Made by a program: the position numbers and the translations under genes
The notes under the pieces: generated by a model
Database searches by the model: none
What the model was told of the DNA's origin: nothing
What the model saw: only the letters and a program-made list of their open reading frames with translations
Shown: positions 33,411-51,185 of the stretch, piece by piece
Position numbering within the stretch: the first letter of the stretch is position 1
Layout of the letters: every line of letters starts with the position of its first letter
From: Halorubrum salsamenti
GTDB taxonomy: Archaea > Halobacteriota > Halobacteria > Halobacteriales > Haloferacaceae
NCBI RefSeq assembly: GCF_007671685.1
Contig: NZ_VCNL01000005.1
Span: forward strand, 62,001-126,000
Length of the DNA: 64,000 nucleotides
Direction: 5' to 3'

Positions 33411-34718
33411 ATGGACACGGTTGAACACTGGGTGCTCGACGACGACGACCGCGTGCTCGTCGAGCGGTTAGCGGCTGGGCTCGGCCGCGACGCGGCGCGG
33501 GTGCTCGCATACCTTCTCTTGCGCCGCGACCACGACCGGATCGAGCGGGCGCGGGCGACGTCGATGGCGATCCGCATCGGGACGGGACTGAACGGGAAGG
33601 CCGTCGACGACGCCGTCTCGAAGCTCGAAACGCGGGACCTGATCGAGCGAGCGACCGTCGAGTCGTCCGGGGGCGGACGACCGCCGAACGCGTGGCGGCC
33701 CGCGCGCGACCGCCGCGAGACCCTCGACCGCGTGTACCATTCCCACTCGATCGCTCTCCTCGAACGAGCGGCCGCGGTCGCGGAGCTCGATCGAGAGCCG
33801 ACGGAGGGATCGGGCTCGCTCTCTGGGCCGGGGGACGAATCGGCGCCCGAGCGCGGTCCCGAGGTCGTCGTCGCGCTTAACTGGCGCCCGAACTCGCTCC
33901 ACCTTCCGCTGTACGCCGCCGTCGACGAGGGGGCATACGAGCGACGGGGGCTCGACGTGACCGTCACCAACCACCGCGGCTCGCACCGAGCGCTCGAAGC
34001 GGTACTGGACGGGGACGCGGACGTCGGGCTCGTCGGGGCGGGATCGGTCGTCCGGGCGCTGGCCGCGGACCGCCCGGTCGTACCGCTGGCCGTACTCCAC
34101 CAGCGAACCGCGACGGTGCTGTACGCGCTCCGTGGCCGCTTCGGCGAACCGTTCGAGAGCGTGAATCAGCTGCGCGGACGGCGGATCCTCACGACGACGG
34201 GCTCCGAGACGTGTCTACTTGCGAGGCTGTTCCTCTCTCAGGCCGACCTGCTCAGCGAGGTCGAACTCGTCGACGCCGACGGCGAGGAGCGCGACGCGCT
34301 GATCGCCGGCGACGCCGACGTAGCGACGGGATCGCTCGCCGATCCGCTCGAACTGGAGGCGGACAGCCGGACGGTCGACGTCCTCTCGATCGGCGACCAC
34401 TTCCCGATCTACGGGCTCACGCTCGTGGCCCCGGAGGCTGCGTTCGAACCGGAGAACGGCCGTTGGCGGCGATTCCTCGCGGGAACGTCCGCGGGCTGGG
34501 CGACGGCGAGGACCGATCCCGGCCCGGCGGCCACGGCGGTAGCCGCGGAGACGGACGAGTCCGCGAGCGCCGTGAGCGAGCGCTTCGCGCGGGCGGTCGA
34601 GTCGTTCGGGACGCGCGACGCGCTCCGAGACGAGGGGTGGGGGTGGCACGGGCCAGCGACATGGAACCGGCTGAAGACCGCGCTGGAGCAGGGCGATCTG
34701 CTCGGTGGGGCCCCATGA
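33411..34718 (+). CDS. HTH regulator fused to an SsuA/THI5-like substrate-binding domain
   Basis: A 435-residue protein without signal peptide. Residues 1-100 are a winged helix-turn-helix of TrmB/MarR type (ARVLAYLLLRRDHDR, KAVDDAVSKLETRDLIER, GGGRPPNAWRP). After a charged linker, residues about 150-435 form a type-2 periplasmic-binding fold: VALNWRPNSLHLPLYAAVDE, GDADVGLVGAGSVVRALA, and a tail RDEGWGWHGPATW. That tail matches REEGWGWSDPEPW in the transporter's binding protein at 37256-38431. It should sense the transported ligand in the cytoplasm and control the operon it heads; its stop overlaps the ATPase start by four bases (ATGA). Confidence 0.85.
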   Translation: MDTVEHWVLDDDDRVLVERLAAGLGRDAARVLAYLLLRRDHDRIERARATSMAIRIGTGLNGKAVDDAVSKLETRDLIERATVESSGGGRPPNAWRPARDRRETLDRVYHSHSIALLERAAAVAELDREPTEGSGSLSGPGDESAPERGPEVVVALNWRPNSLHLPLYAAVDEGAYERRGLDVTVTNHRGSHRALEAVLDGDADVGLVGAGSVVRALAADRPVVPLAVLHQRTATVLYALRGRFGEPFESVNQLRGRRILTTTGSETCLLARLFLSQADLLSEVELVDADGEERDALIAGDADVATGSLADPLELEADSRTVDVLSIGDHFPIYGLTLVAPEAAFEPENGRWRRFLAGTSAGWATARTDPGPAATAVAAETDESASAVSERFARAVESFGTRDALRDEGWGWHGPATWNRLKTALEQGDLLGGAP

Positions 34719-35494
34719 TCGAGATCGACGGTGTGACCGTCACGTTCGACGACGTACGGGCGATCAAAGACGTCGATCTGACGGTCGAAGACGGGGAGTT
34801 CCTCACGGTGGTCGGCCCGTCCGGCTGCGGAAAGACCACGCTGTTGCGGACCGTCGGCGGGCTCCAGGAGCCGACGACGGGCAGCGTCCGCGTGAACGGA
34901 GCGACCACGGACGCGGCGCGGACGAACGCGGAACTCGGGTACGTGTTCCAACAGCACACGCTGCTGCCGTGGAAATCGGCCGTCGAGAACGTCACGTTCC
35001 TCCGAGAGATGGCCGGGAAGTCGGCCGACAGGGAGGAGGCGAGGCGGCTCCTCCGCGAGGTCGGGCTGGAGGGGTTCGAGAGCGCTCGGCCGGCGGCGCT
35101 GTCGGGAGGGATGAAACAGCGGGTCGCCATCGCGCGGGCGATCCACCTCGGGGCGGAGATCCTGCTCATGGACGAGCCGTTCGGCGAGCTCGACGAGATA
35201 ACGCGAGAGCGGCTGGGCGTCGAGATTCGCAGGCTCTGGCGGGCCGAGCGGAAGACGGTCGTGTTCGTCACCCACAGCGTCCCGGAGGCCGTCTTCCTCG
35301 CCGACCGCTGCGTCGTCATGGAGAGCGATCCCGGCCGGGTCATCGAGACGTTCGAAGTCGACCTGCCTCGGCCGCGGACGGACGAGGTGTACAGCAGCGA
35401 CGCGTTCCAGGAACAGGTCGCCGCGATCCGGAGCGTGTTACACGAGAACCGCTCGGAGCCCTCGACCGCCGGACCGACGCTCACGGAGCCATGA
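34715..35494 (+). CDS. ABC transporter ATPase, nitrate/sulfonate/taurine (SsuB) type
   Basis: A 259-residue ATPase with Walker A GPSGCGKT, Q-loop YVFQQHTLLPW, signature LSGGMKQR, Walker B ILLMDEPF and switch His in FVTHSVPEA. The LPWKSAVENV segment is typical of SsuB/TauB/NrtD. It probably energises both membrane proteins encoded at 35491-36273 and 36336-37184. ATG 34715 overlaps the regulator's stop; its own stop overlaps the permease ATG (ATGA). Substrate class is nitrate, sulfonate, taurine or a thiamine-pyrimidine precursor by family; not resolvable further. Confidence 0.92.
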   Translation: MIEIDGVTVTFDDVRAIKDVDLTVEDGEFLTVVGPSGCGKTTLLRTVGGLQEPTTGSVRVNGATTDAARTNAELGYVFQQHTLLPWKSAVENVTFLREMAGKSADREEARRLLREVGLEGFESARPAALSGGMKQRVAIARAIHLGAEILLMDEPFGELDEITRERLGVEIRRLWRAERKTVVFVTHSVPEAVFLADRCVVMESDPGRVIETFEVDLPRPRTDEVYSSDAFQEQVAAIRSVLHENRSEPSTAGPTLTEP

Positions 35495-36273
35495 ACGAAC
35501 GCGTCCGAGGATCCGGATCGCCGGTGAGGGCGGCCGACGTGGCCCTCCCGCTCGCCGGGCTCGCGGGGGCGACCGGGGCGTGGTGGGCGCTCGTCGCCGC
35601 GTTGAACGTCCCCTCGTACCTCCTCCCCCCGCCGGACGCCGTCGCCGCGGTGATCGTCGGCAACCCGGGGATGTTCGCCCGGAACGCCGTCGCGACCGCG
35701 GAGAAAGTGGCGATCGGCGGCAGCGTCGGCGTCGCGACCGGGTTCCTTCTCGCGGTGTCGATCTCCCGCCTTCCGTGGCTCAGGCGTGCGGTCTACCCGT
35801 ACCTCGTCACCGTGCGAGTGCTCCCGAAGATCGCGATCGCACCGCTGCTGCTGATATACGTCGGCACCGGCACGACCACCGCGGTCGTCTTCATCGGGCT
35901 CATCGCGTTCTTCCCGATGGTGTTGAGCACGGCGGCGGGGTTCGAGCGCGTCCCGACCGAACAGCGGGACCTGCTTCGCTCGGTCGACGCCGACCCGCTG
36001 GACGCGTTTCTGCGGCTCGAACTGCCGTACGCCGTCCCCGACCTGTTCGCCGGGCTCAAGCAGTCGGTGACGCTCGCCGTCATCGGAGCCGTCGTCGCCG
36101 AGTGGCTCGTCTCCGACAGCGGACTCGGGTTCCTCATCCTCCTCGGCTCGGAGAACGTCCAGGTGGACCTCATGCTCGCCGCCCTGGCGGTGCTCGTCGC
36201 CCTCGGGCTCTCGCTGTACGGGCTGGTCGTCCTCGCGCAGCGCCGCCTCGGCTGGACGCCGGCCGCCGGTTGA
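35491..36273 (+). CDS. ABC transporter permease, SsuC type (first)
   Basis: A 260-residue membrane protein with about six helices and the binding-protein-dependent permease EAA-type loop (RSVDADPLDAFLRLELPYAVPDLFAGLKQSV). PSYLLPPPDAVAAVI near the N-terminus is typical for SsuC/TauC. Its start overlaps the ATPase stop by four bases. It converges on the second permease gene across a hairpin. Together with that gene it could form a heterodimer, which is unusual because SsuC transporters usually use one permease as a homodimer. Confidence 0.9.
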   Translation: MNERVRGSGSPVRAADVALPLAGLAGATGAWWALVAALNVPSYLLPPPDAVAAVIVGNPGMFARNAVATAEKVAIGGSVGVATGFLLAVSISRLPWLRRAVYPYLVTVRVLPKIAIAPLLLIYVGTGTTTAVVFIGLIAFFPMVLSTAAGFERVPTEQRDLLRSVDADPLDAFLRLELPYAVPDLFAGLKQSVTLAVIGAVVAEWLVSDSGLGFLILLGSENVQVDLMLAALAVLVALGLSLYGLVVLAQRRLGWTPAAG

Positions 36274-36320
36274 GGGGCCGGAAGCCGGTTCCCCGCGAGA
36301 GGCGGAGCGGACTCACAAGG

Positions 36321-36350
36321 AGGAAGCCCACGGCTTCAGCCGTGGGAGGA
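36321..36350. terminator. Strong hairpin CCCACGGC-TTCA-GCCGTGGG that contains the stop codon of the second permease
   Basis: Perfect eight-base stem at 36327-36346 flanked by GGAAG and AGGA. It lies between the two convergent permease genes and overlaps the last codons of the minus-strand one: the stem encodes His-Gly and the TGA is in the loop. The sequence resembles the 3' hairpin of haloarchaeal IS200/IS605 TnpB elements. It could terminate transcription from both sides. A near copy is at 46115-46139. Confidence 0.6.
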
Positions 36351-37184
36351 ATCCGACTCCGCCCACACCGCGCGTTCGAGGAGGACGGGACCGAGGTAGA
36401 AGGCGACACCGAGCGCCGACAGCGCGACCAGCGCGGCGTACGTCTCCGCGGTCTGGAGGCGTTGCGCGGTCACGAACACGCGGTAGCCGATACCGGCCCT
36501 GAGAGTGACGAACTCGGCGACGACGGCGCCGACGATAGACAGCGTCGCCGCGAGCTTGAGGCCGGCGAACACGCTCGGCGCGGCCGCGGGGACGCGCACC
36601 CGGAGGAACACGGACGGTTTCGACGCGTCGACGGAGCGCGCGAGCGCGAGGTATCGATCGGGCGTCGACCGGAGCCCGTCCAGCGTCGCAACGGTCATCG
36701 GGAACAGCGTCAGCGTCGCGACCAGCGCCGCGCGGGCGGGGATCCCTCGGCCGAACCAGAGGAAGACGAGCGGCGCGACCGCGATCAGCGGCGCGACCCG
36801 GAGCGCGATGACGTACGGTAACGCGATCCGAGCCGCCGTCCGAGAGTAGGTCATCGCGAACGCCAGCACGCCGCCGACGACGCAACCGGCCAGCAGGCCC
36901 GTCGCCGCGGTCGCGCCCGTCACGGCGGCGTCGGCGAGCAGCGTCGCGCCGCGGGCGACGAGTGCGTCGGCGACCGCGGCGGGCGTCGGCAGAATGATCG
37001 CCGGGATCGCGAGCGCGACGACGGTCGCGTGCCACGCGAGGACGAGCGCCACCAACAACAGCAGCGGCGGGACGACGGGCGTCGCCGCCGCGAGGGCCTG
37101 AGTCCGTATCCGACGTTCCCGACGCTTCCAGTTCGGGACGCCGGAGAGCGTCTGCGACTCGCGCGATCGCTCGGGTTCGGCCAT
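36336..37184 (-). CDS. ABC transporter permease, SsuC type (second)
   Basis: A 282-residue permease with a basic N-terminal extension (NWKRRERRIRTQ) and about six helices. IPAIILPTPAAVADALV corresponds to the PPPDAV segment of the first permease and SVDASKPSVFLRVRVPAAAPSVFAGLKL is the EAA-type loop that contacts the ATPase. It is downstream of the binding-protein gene by 71 bases on the same strand. No ATPase is encoded in this arm, so it must share the one at 34715. Its last residues (SSHG) and stop are supplied by the hairpin at 36327-36346. Confidence 0.9.
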   Translation of the reverse strand: MAEPERSRESQTLSGVPNWKRRERRIRTQALAAATPVVPPLLLLVALVLAWHATVVALAIPAIILPTPAAVADALVARGATLLADAAVTGATAATGLLAGCVVGGVLAFAMTYSRTAARIALPYVIALRVAPLIAVAPLVFLWFGRGIPARAALVATLTLFPMTVATLDGLRSTPDRYLALARSVDASKPSVFLRVRVPAAAPSVFAGLKLAATLSIVGAVVAEFVTLRAGIGYRVFVTAQRLQTAETYAALVALSALGVAFYLGPVLLERAVWAESDSSHG

Positions 37185-37255
37185 CGCTCACGGCACCCCG
37201 CTCGCGGGGCCGCCGCTCGTCGTCCGCCCGTCGACCGGGCGGAACGTGGCGGGGA

Positions 37256-38431
37256 TCACTGGTCGACGAGGTCGGCGTAATCGCCGATGTGCTCGTCGTC
37301 GGTGTCCAGGTACTCGTTCGTCCAGACCGCGTCGGGGTCGACCGACCCGTCGAAGAAGTCCCCGGCGTCCAGCGTCTCGTAAGTCTGCCGCCACGGCTCC
37401 GGATCGCTCCACCCCCATCCCTCCTCGCGGACCGTCTCGGAGACCATGTACTCGGAGCGCATCAGGTCCCACTTTGCGCGTTGGTTCTCCCGGACCTCCG
37501 ACAGTTCGCTCTGAGCGTCCACGAGCGCGTCGATCGCCCCCTCCGGATTCCGGTCGGCCCACACCGCCCCCCGCGCGGTCGCTCGGAGGAACGCGGCCAC
37601 GGTCTCCGGGTTCTCCTCGGCGAACGACTCCCCGACGGTGAGCAGGTGACCGTACGACGGGACGGCGTCGTGTACCGACAGCACGTCGATCTCGGCGCCC
37701 TGGTGGCGCGCGTCGACGACGTCGCCGAAGACGCCGCCCGCGGCGTCGATCTCCCCGTTGAGGAGCTGTTGGACCGTGTCGAACCCGGTATCGACGTATT
37801 CGACGTCAGTGACACCGGTGGCCTCGAAATACCCGCGCATCATCTGTCGGACCATCCCGGGTCCGCTCCCCACGGTCGCGCCCGACAGCTGCGACGGGTC
37901 CGTCAGTTCCTCGCCGAACCGCTCCCGCGACGAGAAGACGACGACGGGGCTCCGCTGCATCACGATCCCGACGGCCAGCGGCGAGAGGTCCCCGTCGTTG
38001 ACACCGAGGATCTGATCGCTGCTGGAGACGCCGAACTCGGTGTTGCCGAGCGCGACCTGCTGGGCCGAGAAATCGGACCCGTCGCCGCTCTCGATCGCGA
38101 CCGACTCGAACCCCTCGTCCTCGTAAAATCCCTGCGACTGCGCGGCGAAGTACGGCGCGTGAAGTCCGCTTATCCGCCAGTTGAGCAGTAGCGACGGGTT
38201 CTCGACGGCGAGGGCGTTGTCCTCGCCGCCGTCGTCGCTGTCGCTGCCGCCGCCGTCGCTATCGCTGCCGCCGTCGCTGCCGTTAGTGGTGTCGCCGCCG
38301 TCGTCGCCGTCCCCGTTCCCCCCGCCGTCGTCGCCGTCGCCACTGAAGCGGCCGGTACACCCCGATACCGCGGCCGTTCCGAGGGTGGCGAGGATCGCTC
38401 GCCTGGATCGGATCATCTCGTTTGACATCAT
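37256..38431 (-). CDS. ABC transporter substrate-binding lipoprotein, SsuA/THI5 type
   Basis: A 391-residue Tat lipoprotein: RSRRAILATLGTAAVSGCTG holds the twin arginine and the lipobox Cys. Then comes a long low-complexity Gly/Asp/Ser linker (about residues 30-75, encoded by GAC/GGC-type triplet runs), then the binding domain: LLLNWRISGLHAPYFAAQSQ, GNTEFGVSSSDQIL, EIDAAGGVFGDVV. The family binds sulfonates, nitrate, taurine or pyrimidine precursors. The C-terminal REEGWGWSDPEPW matches the fused regulator at 33411. ATG 38431 or 38428 are equally possible; an ATAAAT element lies near 38465. Confidence 0.9.
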   Translation of the reverse strand: MMSNEMIRSRRAILATLGTAAVSGCTGRFSGDGDDGGGNGDGDDGGDTTNGSDGGSDSDGGGSDSDDGGEDNALAVENPSLLLNWRISGLHAPYFAAQSQGFYEDEGFESVAIESGDGSDFSAQQVALGNTEFGVSSSDQILGVNDGDLSPLAVGIVMQRSPVVVFSSRERFGEELTDPSQLSGATVGSGPGMVRQMMRGYFEATGVTDVEYVDTGFDTVQQLLNGEIDAAGGVFGDVVDARHQGAEIDVLSVHDAVPSYGHLLTVGESFAEENPETVAAFLRATARGAVWADRNPEGAIDALVDAQSELSEVRENQRAKWDLMRSEYMVSETVREEGWGWSDPEPWRQTYETLDAGDFFDGSVDPDAVWTNEYLDTDDEHIGDYADLVDQ

Positions 38432-41978: not shown

Positions 41979-42908
41979 ATGGTGTCTCCGCACCACGATA
42001 CCACTATGACGAGACCACAGATCACGATCGACGGCCGAGACGAACTCACTGATACGCTCGGAATCAGTCGGTCGGATGTCGGCGAGAGACCTACGTTATC
42101 GGAGCTCAGACGAACAGTCGAGACGGAAACAGATCCGGAGTTCGCCTCGATGGGCGAGGCGATCCGCGACGACCTTTCGGGGGAGCTCGACGCCGAACTG
42201 CTCGCGTCGGAGCTCGCGGCGTTCGAAGAGCAGATCGCTCGGCTCCCAGAGATCCGTGATGCGGGGATTCCGGACGGAGAGAAAGAGCCGGAGGCGCTGT
42301 ATCGTGAGGTCATCCAGCCCGCGTGGCGCCTCTACGATCACCTCGTCGAGACCGGGTTCTTCGAGAGCCTCGAGGAGCGACTCCCGCGGTTCACGCCGGA
42401 CCACATCGAGCGAACGGCACACGAGCTGGTTCGACTCGACGCGTTGGGCGACGAACTCGGAGATCTCGGGTTCGATGAGCGAGAGAGGACAGTGCTCGTG
42501 ATGAACGTGGTGAACAACAACACTCGCCTCGCTCGGTGGGTCCCGACGAAAGAGATCCCGAGCGACGTGGAGTTCGATGTCGAACACGTCCCACCGCTCC
42601 ATAAGCGCGCTATGGGCGGGGCGTTGCTGTGGATCAACTCCATGGACGTCCACCTCTGGCAGAAGGAGGTGCTCGTTACCGAGGAGATCCTCGACGACGG
42701 CTACTGGGACGTGAAAGCGATGCTCGCCGGCGTGGATCTGATCGCGCGGGCGGCGCTCGACATCGCCGAAGGAGGAGCGATGAGCGACTCCCAGCTGGTA
42801 GCCGCGCTGACCGGCGGTGCCGCGATCGCGATCGTCAATCAAGAGGAGATATGTAAGGACGTGTACTGGATCACGGAAGAGATGCGCGCTCCGAGTCCGG
42901 CACGTTAG
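41979..42908 (+). CDS. Unrecognised helical protein coupled to the PQQ dehydrogenase
   Basis: A 309-residue soluble, acidic, mostly helical protein. I do not recognise its family. Notable segments are VMNVVNNNTRLARWVPTKEI, PPLHKRAMGGALLWINSMD and CKDVYWITEEM. No signal peptide, cofactor motif or membrane helix is visible. Start 41979 fits the TATA element in the palindrome; ATG 42006 (MTRPQITIDG) is nearly as likely. Its stop codon overlaps the Shine-Dalgarno sequence of the quinoprotein gene, so the two are translationally coupled and the protein may assist PQQ insertion, stability or electron transfer. That role is inference only. Confidence 0.75.
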   Translation: MVSPHHDTTMTRPQITIDGRDELTDTLGISRSDVGERPTLSELRRTVETETDPEFASMGEAIRDDLSGELDAELLASELAAFEEQIARLPEIRDAGIPDGEKEPEALYREVIQPAWRLYDHLVETGFFESLEERLPRFTPDHIERTAHELVRLDALGDELGDLGFDERERTVLVMNVVNNNTRLARWVPTKEIPSDVEFDVEHVPPLHKRAMGGALLWINSMDVHLWQKEVLVTEEILDDGYWDVKAMLAGVDLIARAALDIAEGGAMSDSQLVAALTGGAAIAIVNQEEICKDVYWITEEMRAPSPAR

Positions 42909-42913
42909 GAGGT
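42907..42913 (+). promoter_or_regulatory. Shine-Dalgarno sequence AGGAGGT of the PQQ dehydrogenase
   Basis: A full anti-16S match six bases before ATG 42920 and overlapping the previous gene's TAG. It fixes the start codon and indicates translational coupling. Confidence 0.75.
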
Positions 42914-42919
42914 TCAACA

Positions 42920-44638
42920 ATGGCAATAGAAGAAGACAGAGCGGTCAAGGCCGCACAGGACACGGTCGTACGTGAGACAGATCAGGGGTATCGAGTGCTC
43001 GGATCGCCCGAGGAGTCCGTTACCCACCAGCACGACACCGATCGCATTCCGCGCAAGGATATCACCGAGGAGGACATCATCGACTCGGCGGACGATCCGG
43101 AGGCGTGGCTCACGTACGGCGGGAACTACGAACAGCACCGCTGCACCACCGCGGACGTGATCACTCCCGAAAACGTCGGCGACCTCGAGCTCGAGTACGA
43201 GCTCCACGTCGGCGCGGAGTCCAGCATGGAGGGCACGCCGCTGGTGGTCCCCGGCGATCCGCCGGTGATGTACCAGTCGAACGGACCGAACCACGTCAAG
43301 GCGATCGACACGCGGTCGGGCGACGTGCTGTGGAGCTACACGTACGCGGTACCGTCGGACGTCGTTCTCTGCTGTGACGACAACAACCGCGGCGTGGCGA
43401 TCCTCGACGACAAGGTGTTCATGACGACGCTCGACTCGGGCGTCGTCGCGCTCAACCGATACACCGGCGAGGAAGAGTGGTACACGGGCACGGCCGACCA
43501 CGAGTCCGGATACTCCGCGACGTGGGCGCCGGTGGTGTACGACGGCAAGGTGTTCACCGGCAGCGCCGGCGGCGAGTACGGCGTCCGCGGCTTCCACGTC
43601 GCGCTCGACGCCGAGACCGGCGACGAGGTGTGGCGCACGATGACGTCGCCCGACGAGGAGTGGGTCGGCGACAGCATCGAGCAATCGTGTGCGACCAACT
43701 GGATGACGGCGACGATCGACACCGAAAACGAGAAGCTGTACATGCCGGTCGGGAACCCCGGCCCCGACTTCGACGGCTCCGTCCGACCGGGACCGAACCG
43801 GAACAGCGCGGGAACGCTCTGTCTCGACATGCAGACCGGCGAGCGCGAGTGGTTCCACCAGGAGTCTCCCCACGACGTGTGGGACTACGACTCCGCGGCG
43901 CCCCGGCTGCTCATCCCTGACTTCGAGATGGAGCACCGCGACTTCGAGGGCGACGCCGTCGTCTCCTTCGGAAAGACCGCGTGGGGCTACACGCTCGACG
44001 CGGACACCGGCGAGCTCCTCAACCGGAGCGAGCCGGGGGTTCAGCAGCTGAACATGTTCCGGATGATCCCGCACATCGACGAGGGCCGGCGGATGCCGTT
44101 CATGCCCGGCGCGATGGGCGGTAACGACTGGCAGCCGCCCGCGTACAACCCCGAGCTCGGCCTCGCGTACTTCAAGATGAACAACTCGCCCCAGGAGGCC
44201 TGGTGGCGGTTCGAGGAGTACGAAGAGGGCAAGAAGTACTGGGGCGGTATCCTCGAAGACGAGATCGACCAGCCTCCGGAGGGGTACAACGACCACATCA
44301 GCGCCGTCGGCGCTATCGATCCGGAGACCGGACAGCTCGTCTGGCGCGACTGGATCGACAGCGACGCCTACATCTGGGGCGGGCTGTTGACCACCGAGAG
44401 CGGCGTCGTCTTCGGCGGGACCCAGAACGGCGACGTCATCGCCTGGGACGGCGAGACCGGCGACCGTCTTTGGGAGTACTCCACGGGTGAGACGGCCATC
44501 TCCGGCAGCCCGATGAGCTGGTACGACCCCGAGACAGAGAAGCAGTACGTGGCCATTCAGGTCGGCGGCAGCGGCTGGCTCCGCCGCGGCACCGCCGGCC
44601 GCGACGACCGGCTCTGCGTGTTCTCGCTCGAGGCGTAA
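42920..44638 (+). CDS. PQQ-dependent alcohol/methanol-type dehydrogenase with lanthanide-type active site
   Basis: A 572-residue eight-bladed quinoprotein propeller with tryptophan-docking repeats (GDVLWSY, GEEEWYT, GDEVWRT, GEREWFH, GQLVWRD, GDRLWEY). The vicinal disulfide pair of quinoprotein alcohol dehydrogenases is present (VLCCDDN, Cys151-Cys152). Metal ligands align with XoxF/MxaF: Glu219 in AGGEYGVRG, Asn279 in VGNPGP, catalytic Asp322 in HDVWDYDS. Asp324, two residues on, is the extra ligand that marks lanthanide-dependent enzymes (Ala in calcium MxaF). No signal peptide is visible, unlike periplasmic bacterial relatives. Substrate and electron acceptor unknown; no PQQ synthesis genes or cytochrome are in the window. 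Confidence 0.88.
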   Translation: MAIEEDRAVKAAQDTVVRETDQGYRVLGSPEESVTHQHDTDRIPRKDITEEDIIDSADDPEAWLTYGGNYEQHRCTTADVITPENVGDLELEYELHVGAESSMEGTPLVVPGDPPVMYQSNGPNHVKAIDTRSGDVLWSYTYAVPSDVVLCCDDNNRGVAILDDKVFMTTLDSGVVALNRYTGEEEWYTGTADHESGYSATWAPVVYDGKVFTGSAGGEYGVRGFHVALDAETGDEVWRTMTSPDEEWVGDSIEQSCATNWMTATIDTENEKLYMPVGNPGPDFDGSVRPGPNRNSAGTLCLDMQTGEREWFHQESPHDVWDYDSAAPRLLIPDFEMEHRDFEGDAVVSFGKTAWGYTLDADTGELLNRSEPGVQQLNMFRMIPHIDEGRRMPFMPGAMGGNDWQPPAYNPELGLAYFKMNNSPQEAWWRFEEYEEGKKYWGGILEDEIDQPPEGYNDHISAVGAIDPETGQLVWRDWIDSDAYIWGGLLTTESGVVFGGTQNGDVIAWDGETGDRLWEYSTGETAISGSPMSWYDPETEKQYVAIQVGGSGWLRRGTAGRDDRLCVFSLEA

Positions 44639-46556: not shown

Positions 46557-47099
46557 ATGGCTACGTTGCCTAACACGCCGGATCCGGAACCGGAGGAGAC
46601 CGAGGACCCGACCGTCGTCGCCGGACTCGAGGCGGACGACGAGCCAGCAGCGGACGACGAGACGGAGCGAGACGGTGAGGTGGCAGGCGACGCGAACGTC
46701 GAGCCGGGCTCGAACGGAGCGATCGAGCGCCAGATCGAGACGCTGATCGACGAGCGCGTCGCCGAGATCGAACGGGACATCGAGGCGCTCGAGGCCGAAC
46801 TGGAGGAGCTGGACAACTTCGCTCGGATCAGCCTCGGTGAACGGTACTCACAGCGGATCGAACAGAACGTCTCGGAGCTCTCGGACTCCCTCACGGGGTT
46901 CGCGGAGCGGAACTTCCAGAAGCTCAACAGCGTCGAGGGTCGAGTCGACGAGATGTCGCTGGTGTTGACTGCGGTGCTCGAGGCGCTCGACGAGGAGGAC
47001 ATCGACGTCGACTTCTCCGAGGTCAGACGCATGCAGGAGGCGGGGGTCGTCGAGCAGGCCCCGGCCGAGCGACTGGAGGCCGCGAGTCGCGACGAGTGA
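46557..47099 (+). CDS. Acidic coiled-coil protein of unknown function
   Basis: A 180-residue very acidic protein. Residues 1-55 are disordered and Asp/Glu-rich; about 58-90 (RQIETLIDERVAEIERDIEALEAELEEL shortened here to its core IERDIEALEAEL) form a strong coiled coil; the rest is helical. TTTAAG 27 bases before ATG 46557 gives a leaderless start. Conserved haloarchaeal proteins of this shape exist, but I know of no function. The C-terminal AGVVEQAPAERLEA may be a short docking element. Confidence 0.75.
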   Translation: MATLPNTPDPEPEETEDPTVVAGLEADDEPAADDETERDGEVAGDANVEPGSNGAIERQIETLIDERVAEIERDIEALEAELEELDNFARISLGERYSQRIEQNVSELSDSLTGFAERNFQKLNSVEGRVDEMSLVLTAVLEALDEEDIDVDFSEVRRMQEAGVVEQAPAERLEAASRDE

Positions 47100-47136: not shown

Positions 47137-47625
47137 TCAGACCTCGCGCTCGCCGATGACGCGGTCCTGCAGGTAGTCGAGGTGTTTCGCGCTGTGGATC
47201 AGGCGGACGTGGTCCGTCGTGGGCTTGCTCTGACAGGTCAGCCGGATCCCCCGCTCTTCGACCTCCTCGTCGGTGATGATGAGATTCATTTCCATCTCCA
47301 ACTCGCCGTCGACGAGGATCCCGGCGCAGTTCGCGCACGACGCGGCGCGACAGGAGAAGGGCCACTCGAATCCGTTGTCCTCGGCGGCGTCGAGGATCTT
47401 TCGGTTCCTGCTCACCTCCATCGTGCCGTACTCTTCCTCGTCTAGGTCGGCGGCGGCCGCTTTCTCGAAGAGGTCGTCGTCGTCGATCCCCCAGTCGTTC
47501 GCGTCGACGACCTCGTAGTCGAGGTACTCGACGGTCGACACCTCCGTCTCGCCTCCCTCGAAGTCGGGATCCTTGGCCGCGTCGCTTCCGATCTTGATGT
47601 TCGGGAGGCTGGAGTCCTCGGCCAT
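47137..47625 (-). CDS. fer: 2Fe-2S plant-type ferredoxin, haloarchaeal
   Basis: A 162-residue ferredoxin. Cluster ligands are in [13 protein letters not shown] and a distal LTCQ. The haloarchaeal acidic insertion ([20 protein letters not shown]) before the core matches Halobacterium ferredoxin, and the protein ends with the typical [11 protein letters not shown] 35-residue N-terminal acidic extension distinguishes it from the standard 128-residue form. It could serve the aldehyde ferredoxin oxidoreductase encoded 1.6 kb away. ATG 47625 fits GTTTAGG 27 bases upstream. Confidence 0.92.
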
Positions 47626-47773
47626 ACATCCGTGATACCACCCCACGTACCTAAACGTCACGGCAAGAACTCCCGGACACGACGGATGTCGCCGGCACAG
47701 AGACCGCCCCCGACGCGCCGACGAGACGCGCAGAAAAAGTTACAATCCCGGGAGACGCACCCTTCGACTGCGT

Positions 47774-49238: not shown

Positions 49239-51185
49239 TCAGTCGTCGGCGGGGGCCGCGGAGTCGCCGGCGGAGACGCCGGTGCCGGGACCGACCTCGA
49301 TCCCGAGTTCCTCGAGCTTCTCGTCGGGAACGACGCCGTCGACCCACCCGCGGGTCTCGTAGTACTCGGCCTTCATCTCGTCGAGTTCGCAGAGTTCGCC
49401 CTCGCTACCCCCCTGTCCGGGGATGGCGTCCGGGTGTCCCTCGACGAAGCGCCCGGGGAGGTCGTCGTCCTCGGCGTCGAAGCCGGCGAGGTTGTTGAAG
49501 TAGCGCTCGAGGTTGTACACCCGCTCGCCGGCCTCGAACAGCTCGTCCTCGGTGACGTCGCGGCCGGTCATGCCGCTGTACTGGAGCACGTACTCCTCGA
49601 TCCCCTCCGCGAAGGCGTTGAACTTGCAGATGTCGAACGAGTCCGAGATCGCGTGCAGGTCTTGGAAGGTGGCGGTGAGCTCGCCCTTGCCCTCCCACTC
49701 GTACGGGTCGACCTTCTCCGGGATCCCGAGGATCTCGGCCGCCGGCGTGTAGGCCCGGAGGTGACAGGCGCCCCGGTTGGAGGTCGCGTACGCGATCCCC
49801 ATCCCCTTCATGCAGCGCGGGTCGTACGCCGGGATCGACTGCCCCTTAACGGCCAGCGAGTTGTCGTGTGCGTCCTTCGCGTCGGCGACGCGGTCCGCTC
49901 CCTCCGCGAGGAGGTCGCCGAGGTCCGAGGAGCGGTAGCCGATCTCGTCGATGAGGTCGATCATCGTCTCGGAGTCGCCCCAGTCGAGGTGGCCGACGCC
50001 GTCGAGCTTGCCCTCCTCGCTCATCTCCATCGCCATCGCCATCATGTTTCCGACCTCGATCGTGTCGACGCCCACCTGGTTGCAGCGCTGGATCATCAGC
50101 GCGATCTCGTCGCGGTGGGTGTGTCCCGAGTTCGGCCCGAGCGCGAACGCGGACTCGTACTCGTACGACTCCATGTGGACGTTCATGTCCTCGCCTTTGT
50201 GCTGGAGCTGGACCTCGACCTCCTTCTTGCACGCCACCGGACAGGAGTGACAGGTCGGGTCGTTGACGAGGATGTTCTCCTCCACGTTCTCGCCGGAGAC
50301 GCGCTCGGCGTCGATGTCGGCCCCCTCGGCGTCGCCGTACGCCCTCGTGGAGGTGTACTTCGCGTTCTTCGTCGGGAGCCCGTCCATCTCCTCGGTCGCG
50401 TTCATCAGGACGTTCGTCCCGTACACGGAGAGCCCGCCCTCGTTGGGCGCGGTGACCTCCGACTCCTGAATGACGCCCATCGCCTGCTGGTACCCCTCCT
50501 GGAACGTCTCGGGGTCGGCCGGCTTCGGCATGTCGGTACCGCTCTTCACGACGACGGCCTTCACGTTCTTCGCGCCCATCACGGCGCCCGTGCCGCCCCG
50601 GCCAGAGGCGCGGTCGTCCTCGTTCATCACGCAGGCGTATCGGACGCCGTTCTCGCCGCCCGGTCCGATCGTCATCACGGAGAGGTTCTTGCCGACGGAC
50701 CCGTCGACCTCCTCGCCGAGCATGTCGATCGCGTCGTGCGTCTCCTTCCCCCAGAGGTGGGAGGCGTCGCGGATCTCGACCTCGCCGTCCTCGACGAACA
50801 GGTAGACGGGGTCGTCGCTCGCGCCGTCGAGCAGGATCCCGTCGAGTCCGGCCCACTTGAGCCGCGCGCCGGACCAGCCGCCGTGGTGCGAGTCCGTCAC
50901 CGTTCCCGTCAGCGGCGACTTCGTCACCAAGGCGATCCGGCCGCTCATTACGGTCTGGGTCCCCGTGAGCGGGCCCGTCATGATCGAGAGCCGGTTTTCC
51001 GGTCCCAGCGGGTCGACGTCCGGCCCGGCCTCGAAGAGATACTTCACCCCGAGTCCGCGCGCGCCGATGTACTTCTCCGCGTCCTCCTCGTCGATGCCCT
51101 CGTAGCTGACGTCGCCGTCGCCGAGATCGACCTGTGCCACTCGGTCCCTGTAGCCGCCCATTTCAGTCATGGCAGTGTTCAACAT
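49239..51185 (-). CDS. aor: Tungsten-dependent aldehyde ferredoxin oxidoreductase
   Basis: A 648-residue AOR-family enzyme that oxidises aldehydes to acids with ferredoxin, using a tungstopterin and one 4Fe-4S cluster. The cluster ligands are C312-x2-C315-x3-C319 in TCHSCPVACK plus a distal Cys in DSFDICKFN. AOR N-terminal motifs are present (GARGLGVKYLF, MTGPLTGT, SHHGGWSGARLKWAG, GRGGTGAVMGAKN). The TATA-like AATAATTAAC near 51211 is 27 bases before ATG 51185. Two internal ATGs (51170, 51161) are possible. Partner ferredoxin could be the gene at 47137. Particular aldehyde unknown. Confidence 0.93.
   Translation of the reverse strand: MLNTAMTEMGGYRDRVAQVDLGDGDVSYEGIDEEDAEKYIGARGLGVKYLFEAGPDVDPLGPENRLSIMTGPLTGTQTVMSGRIALVTKSPLTGTVTDSHHGGWSGARLKWAGLDGILLDGASDDPVYLFVEDGEVEIRDASHLWGKETHDAIDMLGEEVDGSVGKNLSVMTIGPGGENGVRYACVMNEDDRASGRGGTGAVMGAKNVKAVVVKSGTDMPKPADPETFQEGYQQAMGVIQESEVTAPNEGGLSVYGTNVLMNATEEMDGLPTKNAKYTSTRAYGDAEGADIDAERVSGENVEENILVNDPTCHSCPVACKKEVEVQLQHKGEDMNVHMESYEYESAFALGPNSGHTHRDEIALMIQRCNQVGVDTIEVGNMMAMAMEMSEEGKLDGVGHLDWGDSETMIDLIDEIGYRSSDLGDLLAEGADRVADAKDAHDNSLAVKGQSIPAYDPRCMKGMGIAYATSNRGACHLRAYTPAAEILGIPEKVDPYEWEGKGELTATFQDLHAISDSFDICKFNAFAEGIEEYVLQYSGMTGRDVTEDELFEAGERVYNLERYFNNLAGFDAEDDDLPGRFVEGHPDAIPGQGGSEGELCELDEMKAEYYETRGWVDGVVPDEKLEELGIEVGPGTGVSAGDSAAPADD

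Follow-up and report, generated by a model that had tools for sequence, protein, structure and literature searches.

A two-gene locus in a 64,000-nucleotide stretch of the Halorubrum salsamenti genome (the window) encodes a protein that, judged from its sequence, is best explained as a type-I quinoprotein alcohol/aldehyde dehydrogenase predicted to bind PQQ, and a small helical partner that is probably its Tat ‘hitchhiker’ escort and subunit. The two proteins would together form one enzyme, whose dehydrogenase appears to be of the lanthanide (Asp-x-Asp) type and may use a lanthanide, and whose substrates are predicted to be alcohols or aldehydes. The proposal as a whole, a lanthanide-type dehydrogenase with a former Tat-escort subunit, the pair being cytoplasmic in the window's branch of the family, is one that we favour with modest confidence. 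The locus comprises the following features, numbered within the window:

42006 to 42908, plus strand: partner gene, 300 amino acids, all helices, from no known family; proposed as a Tat-escort (‘hitchhiker’) subunit whose Tat signal would have decayed in the window's branch
42033 to 42110, plus strand: putative relic of a Tat signal region (GRDELTDTLGISRSDVGERPTLSELR) in the partner, from alignment to the Tat signal region of the relative L034
42909 to 42914, plus strand: Shine-Dalgarno-like GAGGTT between partner stop and dehydrogenase start, read from the sequence
42920 to 44638, plus strand: PQQ-dependent dehydrogenase, 572 amino acids, lanthanide-type Asp-Tyr-Asp (DYD) site, no signal peptide
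43370 to 43375, plus strand: vicinal Cys151-Cys152
43574 to 43576, plus strand: Glu219, predicted metal ligand
43754 to 43756, plus strand: Asn279, predicted metal ligand
43883 to 43891, plus strand: Asp322-Tyr323-Asp324, the catalytic Asp and the lanthanide-type Asp

The first-pass annotation had called a quinoprotein at 42920-44638, and this call stands: the open reading frame is exact, and the residues named there (Cys151-Cys152, Glu219, Asn279, Asp322 and Asp324) are all present, align in register with PedH (6zcv) and XoxF (4mae), and are invariant in 55 close relatives. The dehydrogenase matches the Pfam profile PF01011 (1.5e-52) and the methanol/ethanol PQQ dehydrogenase profile TIGR03075 (7e-111), the latter with 371 bits, which is below the curated cut-off of 480. 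Its quinoprotein beta-propeller fold is matched in the PDB with an E value of 2e-39, and the solved structures nearest to it in sequence are PedH (6zcv/6zcw) and XoxF (4mae/6dam). A fold search of the PDB with the predicted structure, in which some active-site loops are of low confidence, places PedH at rank 1 (TM approximately 0.79), with XoxF at TM 0.75-0.77. PedH, the lanthanide-dependent PQQ alcohol dehydrogenase of Pseudomonas putida, shares the fold, the Cys-Cys pair, the Glu, the Asn and the Asp-x-Asp with the window dehydrogenase at 28% identity in a structural alignment; the XoxF methanol dehydrogenases 4mae and 6dam share the whole ligand set and an identical WDYD motif, which in PedH reads WDFD. 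In contrast to PedH, XoxF and the XoxF/ExaF/PedH class in general, which is periplasmic, the window dehydrogenase lacks an export signal of its own and has a partner protein instead, and no cytochrome or XoxJ-like gene was noticed nearby. The missing signal peptide had already been remarked upon, and none was found in the window protein, its close haloarchaeal relatives or the divergent loci; in the close relatives the N-terminus is a conserved soluble stretch.

Conservation within the family bears on both the cofactor and the metal. Twelve residues, namely Glu104, Cys151, Cys152, Arg157, Glu219, Trp261, Asn279, Asp322, Tyr323, Asp324, Lys352 and Trp486, are invariant in 55 of 55 close haloarchaeal relatives, in which every catalytic or PQQ-site residue checked shows little or no variation. 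Eleven deeper relatives keep Asp322 and Asp324, have lost the Cys pair and, in nine cases, have Asp, Tyr or Gln in the Glu219 column; another 18 deeper relatives also lack the Cys pair and mostly have Gln in place of Glu104. A deep haloarchaeal branch with Asp-Tyr-Asp kept and the Glu ligand and Cys pair mostly lost is represented by loci L056-L059, L061-L063, L065, L066, L068 and L069. Vicinal Cys pairs of this kind usually form a disulfide outside the cytoplasm; here the pair is invariant in the supposedly cytoplasmic branch of the window and lost in some exported ones. Homologues lacking Asp324 and the partner had been named beforehand as a refuting condition; Asp324 is present in every full-length homologue aligned, and a single locus, L021, lacks the partner. 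The PedH residue equivalent to Asp324 is associated with lanthanides and is a Ser in the calcium enzyme PedE (PMC5487730). The earlier reading of Asp324 as a lanthanide sign thus fits the site type and the nearest structures, which are lanthanide enzymes, and is weakened by the retention of Asp324 where Glu219 is lost: because DYD persists in branches without Glu219, it is by itself no proof of lanthanide use, and would be a weak lanthanide marker in the haloarchaeal family. DYD in archaeal quinoproteins was already known from marine Thaumarchaeota, in enzymes that lack the Cys pair (PMC7300363). These thaumarchaeal PQQ dehydrogenases, some of which have DYD and which possibly feed blue copper proteins, differ further in that many carry their own signal peptides, and the passages drawn on here (Aylward and Santoro 2020, PMC7300363) mention no partner.

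The partner gene starts at the ATG at 42006, where both the start codon and the frame are kept in alignment with the two nearest Halorubrum loci; the start at 41979 given in the first-pass annotation falls on an ATG that is not in frame in these two loci. Nor do the two genes overlap through a Shine-Dalgarno sequence, as had been suggested, as 11 bases separate the partner stop from the dehydrogenase start and GAGGT begins directly after the stop codon; in most other loci the gap is 5-20 bases. The protein, labelled ‘hypothetical protein’ in annotated public records, could not be matched credibly to any Pfam, NCBIfam or PDB entry, the last database searched by sequence and by predicted fold, and the same searches gave no credible homology to known hitchhiker proteins. 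A match to hypoxanthine phosphoribosyltransferase PRK09162 in NCBIfam was dismissed as noise (17.6 bits against a cut-off of 181). The AlphaFold model (pLDDT 87) consists of helices throughout, with no recognised redox motifs. The earlier statement that the partner belongs to no recognised family therefore holds at the level of family and fold; what it had missed is that the N-terminus can be aligned, with no gaps, to a relative's Tat signal peptide, and it is for this reason that we read the partner as an export escort and subunit.

The arrangement of partner and dehydrogenase is far beyond chance. The partner lies directly upstream of the dehydrogenase in every family locus read except L021, a metagenome contig with a dehydrogenase of the window's branch and no detectable partner gene. 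Both genes occur, adjacent, in the same 51 of 292 Halobacteria genomes (dehydrogenase E below 1e-60; the pair is broken in genome G193), which supports a near-obligate pairing of the two genes, whose co-occurrence had been suggested as a check. In G193 (C1, 1278000-1287500; L071), a broken partner and dehydrogenase remnants lie beside an intact-looking Tat cupredoxin gene. Pairwise distances of the two proteins are correlated (r = 0.90), as expected for co-inherited genes. Matches to the partner in a 393-genome sample of the phylum are confined to the window's own order, its plasmid matches are haloarchaeal only, and the collections searched gave no bacterial match to it. The locus is patchy, with 3 occurrences in a sample of at least 35 genomes from the window's genus, and much of the window's gene order recurs in Natronococcus, which together suggest spread by horizontal transfer; in the Natronococcus comparison, DNA identity is approximately 79% for the pair and approximately 68-72% for the flanks (76% in one short stretch).

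In the deep branches of the family, partners open with a motif such as DRREFLKALGVGGAVAAGG, with RRxFLK and a hydrophobic stretch, and the Tat signal profile TIGR01409 scores above its cut-off in five of six partner N-termini tested, with zero matches in two partners classed as lacking a Tat signal (those of the window and L028). It is thus in the deep branches, and not in the window's own protein, that the partner carries a Tat signal for a signal-less dehydrogenase. The N-terminal stretch of the window partner, GRDELTDTLGISRSDVGERPTLSELR, can be aligned gap-free with the L034 Tat signal, offset by at most a single residue, and therefore reads as a decayed signal. Two deep loci, L065 and L068, have the dehydrogenase fused to a cupredoxin domain and still without a signal peptide; the fused domain of L065 belongs to PF00127 and has the copper-site motif CSVHPNSM. 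The simplest reading of the deep branches is that the dehydrogenase would be exported as a hitchhiker of its Tat-bearing partner. Hitchhiker export has been shown for the three-subunit PaoABC (PMC4273604) and for an FAD glucose dehydrogenase, BcGDH, whose gamma-subunit is, like the proposed partner, a small helical protein with a Tat signal that exports the catalytic subunit (PMC6719666); it differs in that the haloarchaeal partner matches no solved structure in sequence or fold and that the cargo here is a PQQ enzyme.

The order of these changes was read from a quick tree built from 87 dehydrogenases of haloarchaea and 8 of bacteria (row L121, also bacterial, left out because its extracted reading frame was wrong), with SH-aLRT support values. 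The haloarchaeal family has Tat-bearing partners at its base and changes state twice, each time by loss; placing all no-Tat rows in one clade, as a single loss would require, was rejected by the AU test (p 1.7e-9). Outside the window's branch there are 23 no-Tat rows (18 plus 5, two separate losses), in all 23 of which a same-strand cupredoxin gene follows the pair; wherever its true start is readable, that start is Tat-like. In the 32 rows of the window's branch no cupredoxin lies beside the pair. The Haloplanus type, sister of both no-Tat branches, bears a Tat signal on both the partner and a cupredoxin encoded on the same strand. The suggested order is that an operonic cupredoxin would have been gained first, after which the partner would have lost its Tat signal, and the cupredoxin would then have been lost in the window's branch; as there are only two independent losses, the tie between Tat loss and an operonic cupredoxin is suggestive and not statistical.

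Genes around the pair offer candidates for its redox partners and for a transporter:

37256 to 38431, minus strand: NMT1/THI5-like ABC-transporter binding lipoprotein, repeatedly found near the pair, with a permease at 36336-37184
46557 to 47099, plus strand: acidic, probably coiled-coil protein; 14 of 33 loci of the first set have a homologue near the pair
47137 to 47661, minus strand: 2Fe-2S ferredoxin paralogue, with a homologue no more than 6 kb from the pair in 25 of the 32 dehydrogenase rows of the window's branch

In many other loci of the family, cupredoxin genes with their own Tat signals adjoin the pair. The ferredoxin is one of three of the same type in the genome and is only a candidate electron acceptor; its standing as the proven acceptor was rejected, as redox potentials disagree and the association is seen on one branch only. 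An ordinary haloarchaeal ferredoxin could not be reduced by PQQ, which is too oxidising, and the locus ferredoxin may therefore be a bystander. In Halococcus dombrowskii (L127, 11075-12793), a second gene annotated as a PQQ-binding-like beta-propeller protein follows the same-locus ferredoxin. Window positions 49239-51185 encode an aldehyde ferredoxin oxidoreductase; 9 of the 33 loci of the first set have a homologue close to the pair.

Of the adjacent genes that were inspected, none was recognised as a PQQ synthesis or cytochrome gene, in agreement with what had been noticed from the window alone, and a wider check of the pqq genes gave the same picture. No pqqC scores above the cut-off in 292 Halobacteria genomes, the window's included, and the same search found it in four of nine bacterial replicons with dehydrogenases of this kind; for pqqB and pqqE, 30 dehydrogenase-bearing haloarchaeal genomes gave no match over the cut-off. 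The PqqB matches in these 30 genomes, mostly weak and partial, were not accepted as synthesis genes, nor were those to PqqE, all of which are below the cut-off, occur likewise in 14 of 14 control genomes and are consistent with generic radical-SAM proteins. From the absence of pqqC in the 292 genomes it follows that PQQ is probably imported; bacteria are known to take up PQQ from their surroundings, and many of those with PQQ enzymes scavenge the cofactor (PMC12124388). NMT1/THI5-type transporter genes occupy window positions 34705-38431 and have homologues near the pair in other genera; a role for this transporter in the import of PQQ or of the substrate is a guess. A genome with four dehydrogenase copies encodes a PqqB-like protein (L116, G191:C3:228020-228796; 114 bits against a cut-off of 245), and two other multi-copy genomes encode PqqE-like radical-SAM proteins (L114 and L115; 138-139 bits against 381); these proteins possibly belong to another quinone cofactor pathway. 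On a plasmid of Streptomyces sp. NBC_01483 (L124), a bacterial PQQ dehydrogenase with WDYD, apparently without a signal peptide (the start codon is uncurated), lies just over 1 kb from pqqC.

In the model that we propose, the dehydrogenase would hold PQQ and a metal, the latter through Glu219, Asn279, Asp322 and Asp324, which match the ligands of the lanthanide enzymes PedH and XoxF, and the small helical subunit would descend from a Tat-targeted escort that is the sole Tat bearer of the pair in the deep branches. There, the dehydrogenase would leave the cell folded and cofactor-loaded, as a hitchhiker, and hand its electrons to a cupredoxin, either the product of an adjacent gene or a fused domain. 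In the window's branch, the Tat signal of the partner would have decayed and the pair been kept, probably as a cytoplasmic complex with PQQ from outside and a different electron acceptor, for which the linked ferredoxin is a candidate only. Relocation to the cytoplasm is suggested by the finding that no Tat or copper protein is conserved near the pair in this branch, and that a 2Fe-2S ferredoxin usually is present. The first-pass annotation had proposed a cytosolic system, which is probably right for the window's branch and does not extend to the deeper branches, with their Tat-bearing partners and their cupredoxins beside or fused to the dehydrogenase; the family thus looks extracytoplasmic by origin, and the cytosolic state would be derived.

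Several other explanations have to be set against this model, one of which concerns the location of the pair. In the window's branch, a third protein with a Tat or Sec tag, encoded elsewhere, may still carry the pair out of the cell, where the pair would work as its relatives do; we regard this as unlikely: neither partner nor dehydrogenase has a signal, and within 7 kb of the pair this branch has no conserved gene bearing a Tat signal. This route would, on the other hand, account for the full retention of the Cys-Cys pair, and in a sister branch with a partner lacking Tat a Tat cupredoxin in the operon could carry both proteins, resembling the three-subunit co-export of PaoABC (PMC4273604). 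A similarly low probability is given to the partner being a dedicated chaperone or a PQQ- or metal-loading factor, with a Tat signal only for its own location, and not a structural subunit. An all-helical protein without recognised redox motifs that was kept after its Tat signal decayed fits such a role, but Tat-proofreading chaperones normally have no signal of their own, and here it is the partner, rather than the dehydrogenase, that bears the Tat signal.

As regards chemistry, the enzyme may be calcium-dependent or metal-promiscuous, with Asp324 having no lanthanide role. The invariance of DYD even where Glu219 is lost, which unties the motif from an intact metal site, speaks for this, and hypersaline media can be calcium-rich; the wholly invariant ligand set of the window's branch and the nearest structures, all lanthanide enzymes, speak against it, and we consider it improbable. 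Still less likely, in our view, is a protein of quinoprotein fold that has ceased to use PQQ. Such a protein would explain why no PQQ synthesis gene exceeds the cut-off in the haloarchaea searched, and relatives thought to lack PQQ are catalogued as TIGR04528, in which the window dehydrogenase reaches 244 bits, far below the cut-off of 650. Relaxed use, however, would allow the catalytic residues to drift, and nearly all of those checked are invariant in 55 sequences; many bacteria with PQQ enzymes, moreover, scavenge their PQQ (PMC12124388).

Under the model of a lanthanide-type dehydrogenase with a former escort, the set of lanthanide-type (DYD and Cys-Cys) quinoproteins would be extended to a large haloarchaeal family, and a new Tat-escort subunit without known relatives, with a PQQ enzyme as its cargo, would be added to the known systems. 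The family forms a natural series, with the Tat signal on the partner, on an operonic cupredoxin or on neither, in which a change of compartment is directly testable, and it raises the question of where archaea without pqqC obtain their PQQ. That a lanthanide quinoprotein has moved into the archaeal cytoplasm through the decay of its escort's Tat signal, with PQQ imported and a new intracellular acceptor, is put forward tentatively, as a rather doubtful possibility; if true, a type of enzyme that is usually extracytoplasmic may work inside the haloarchaeal cell.
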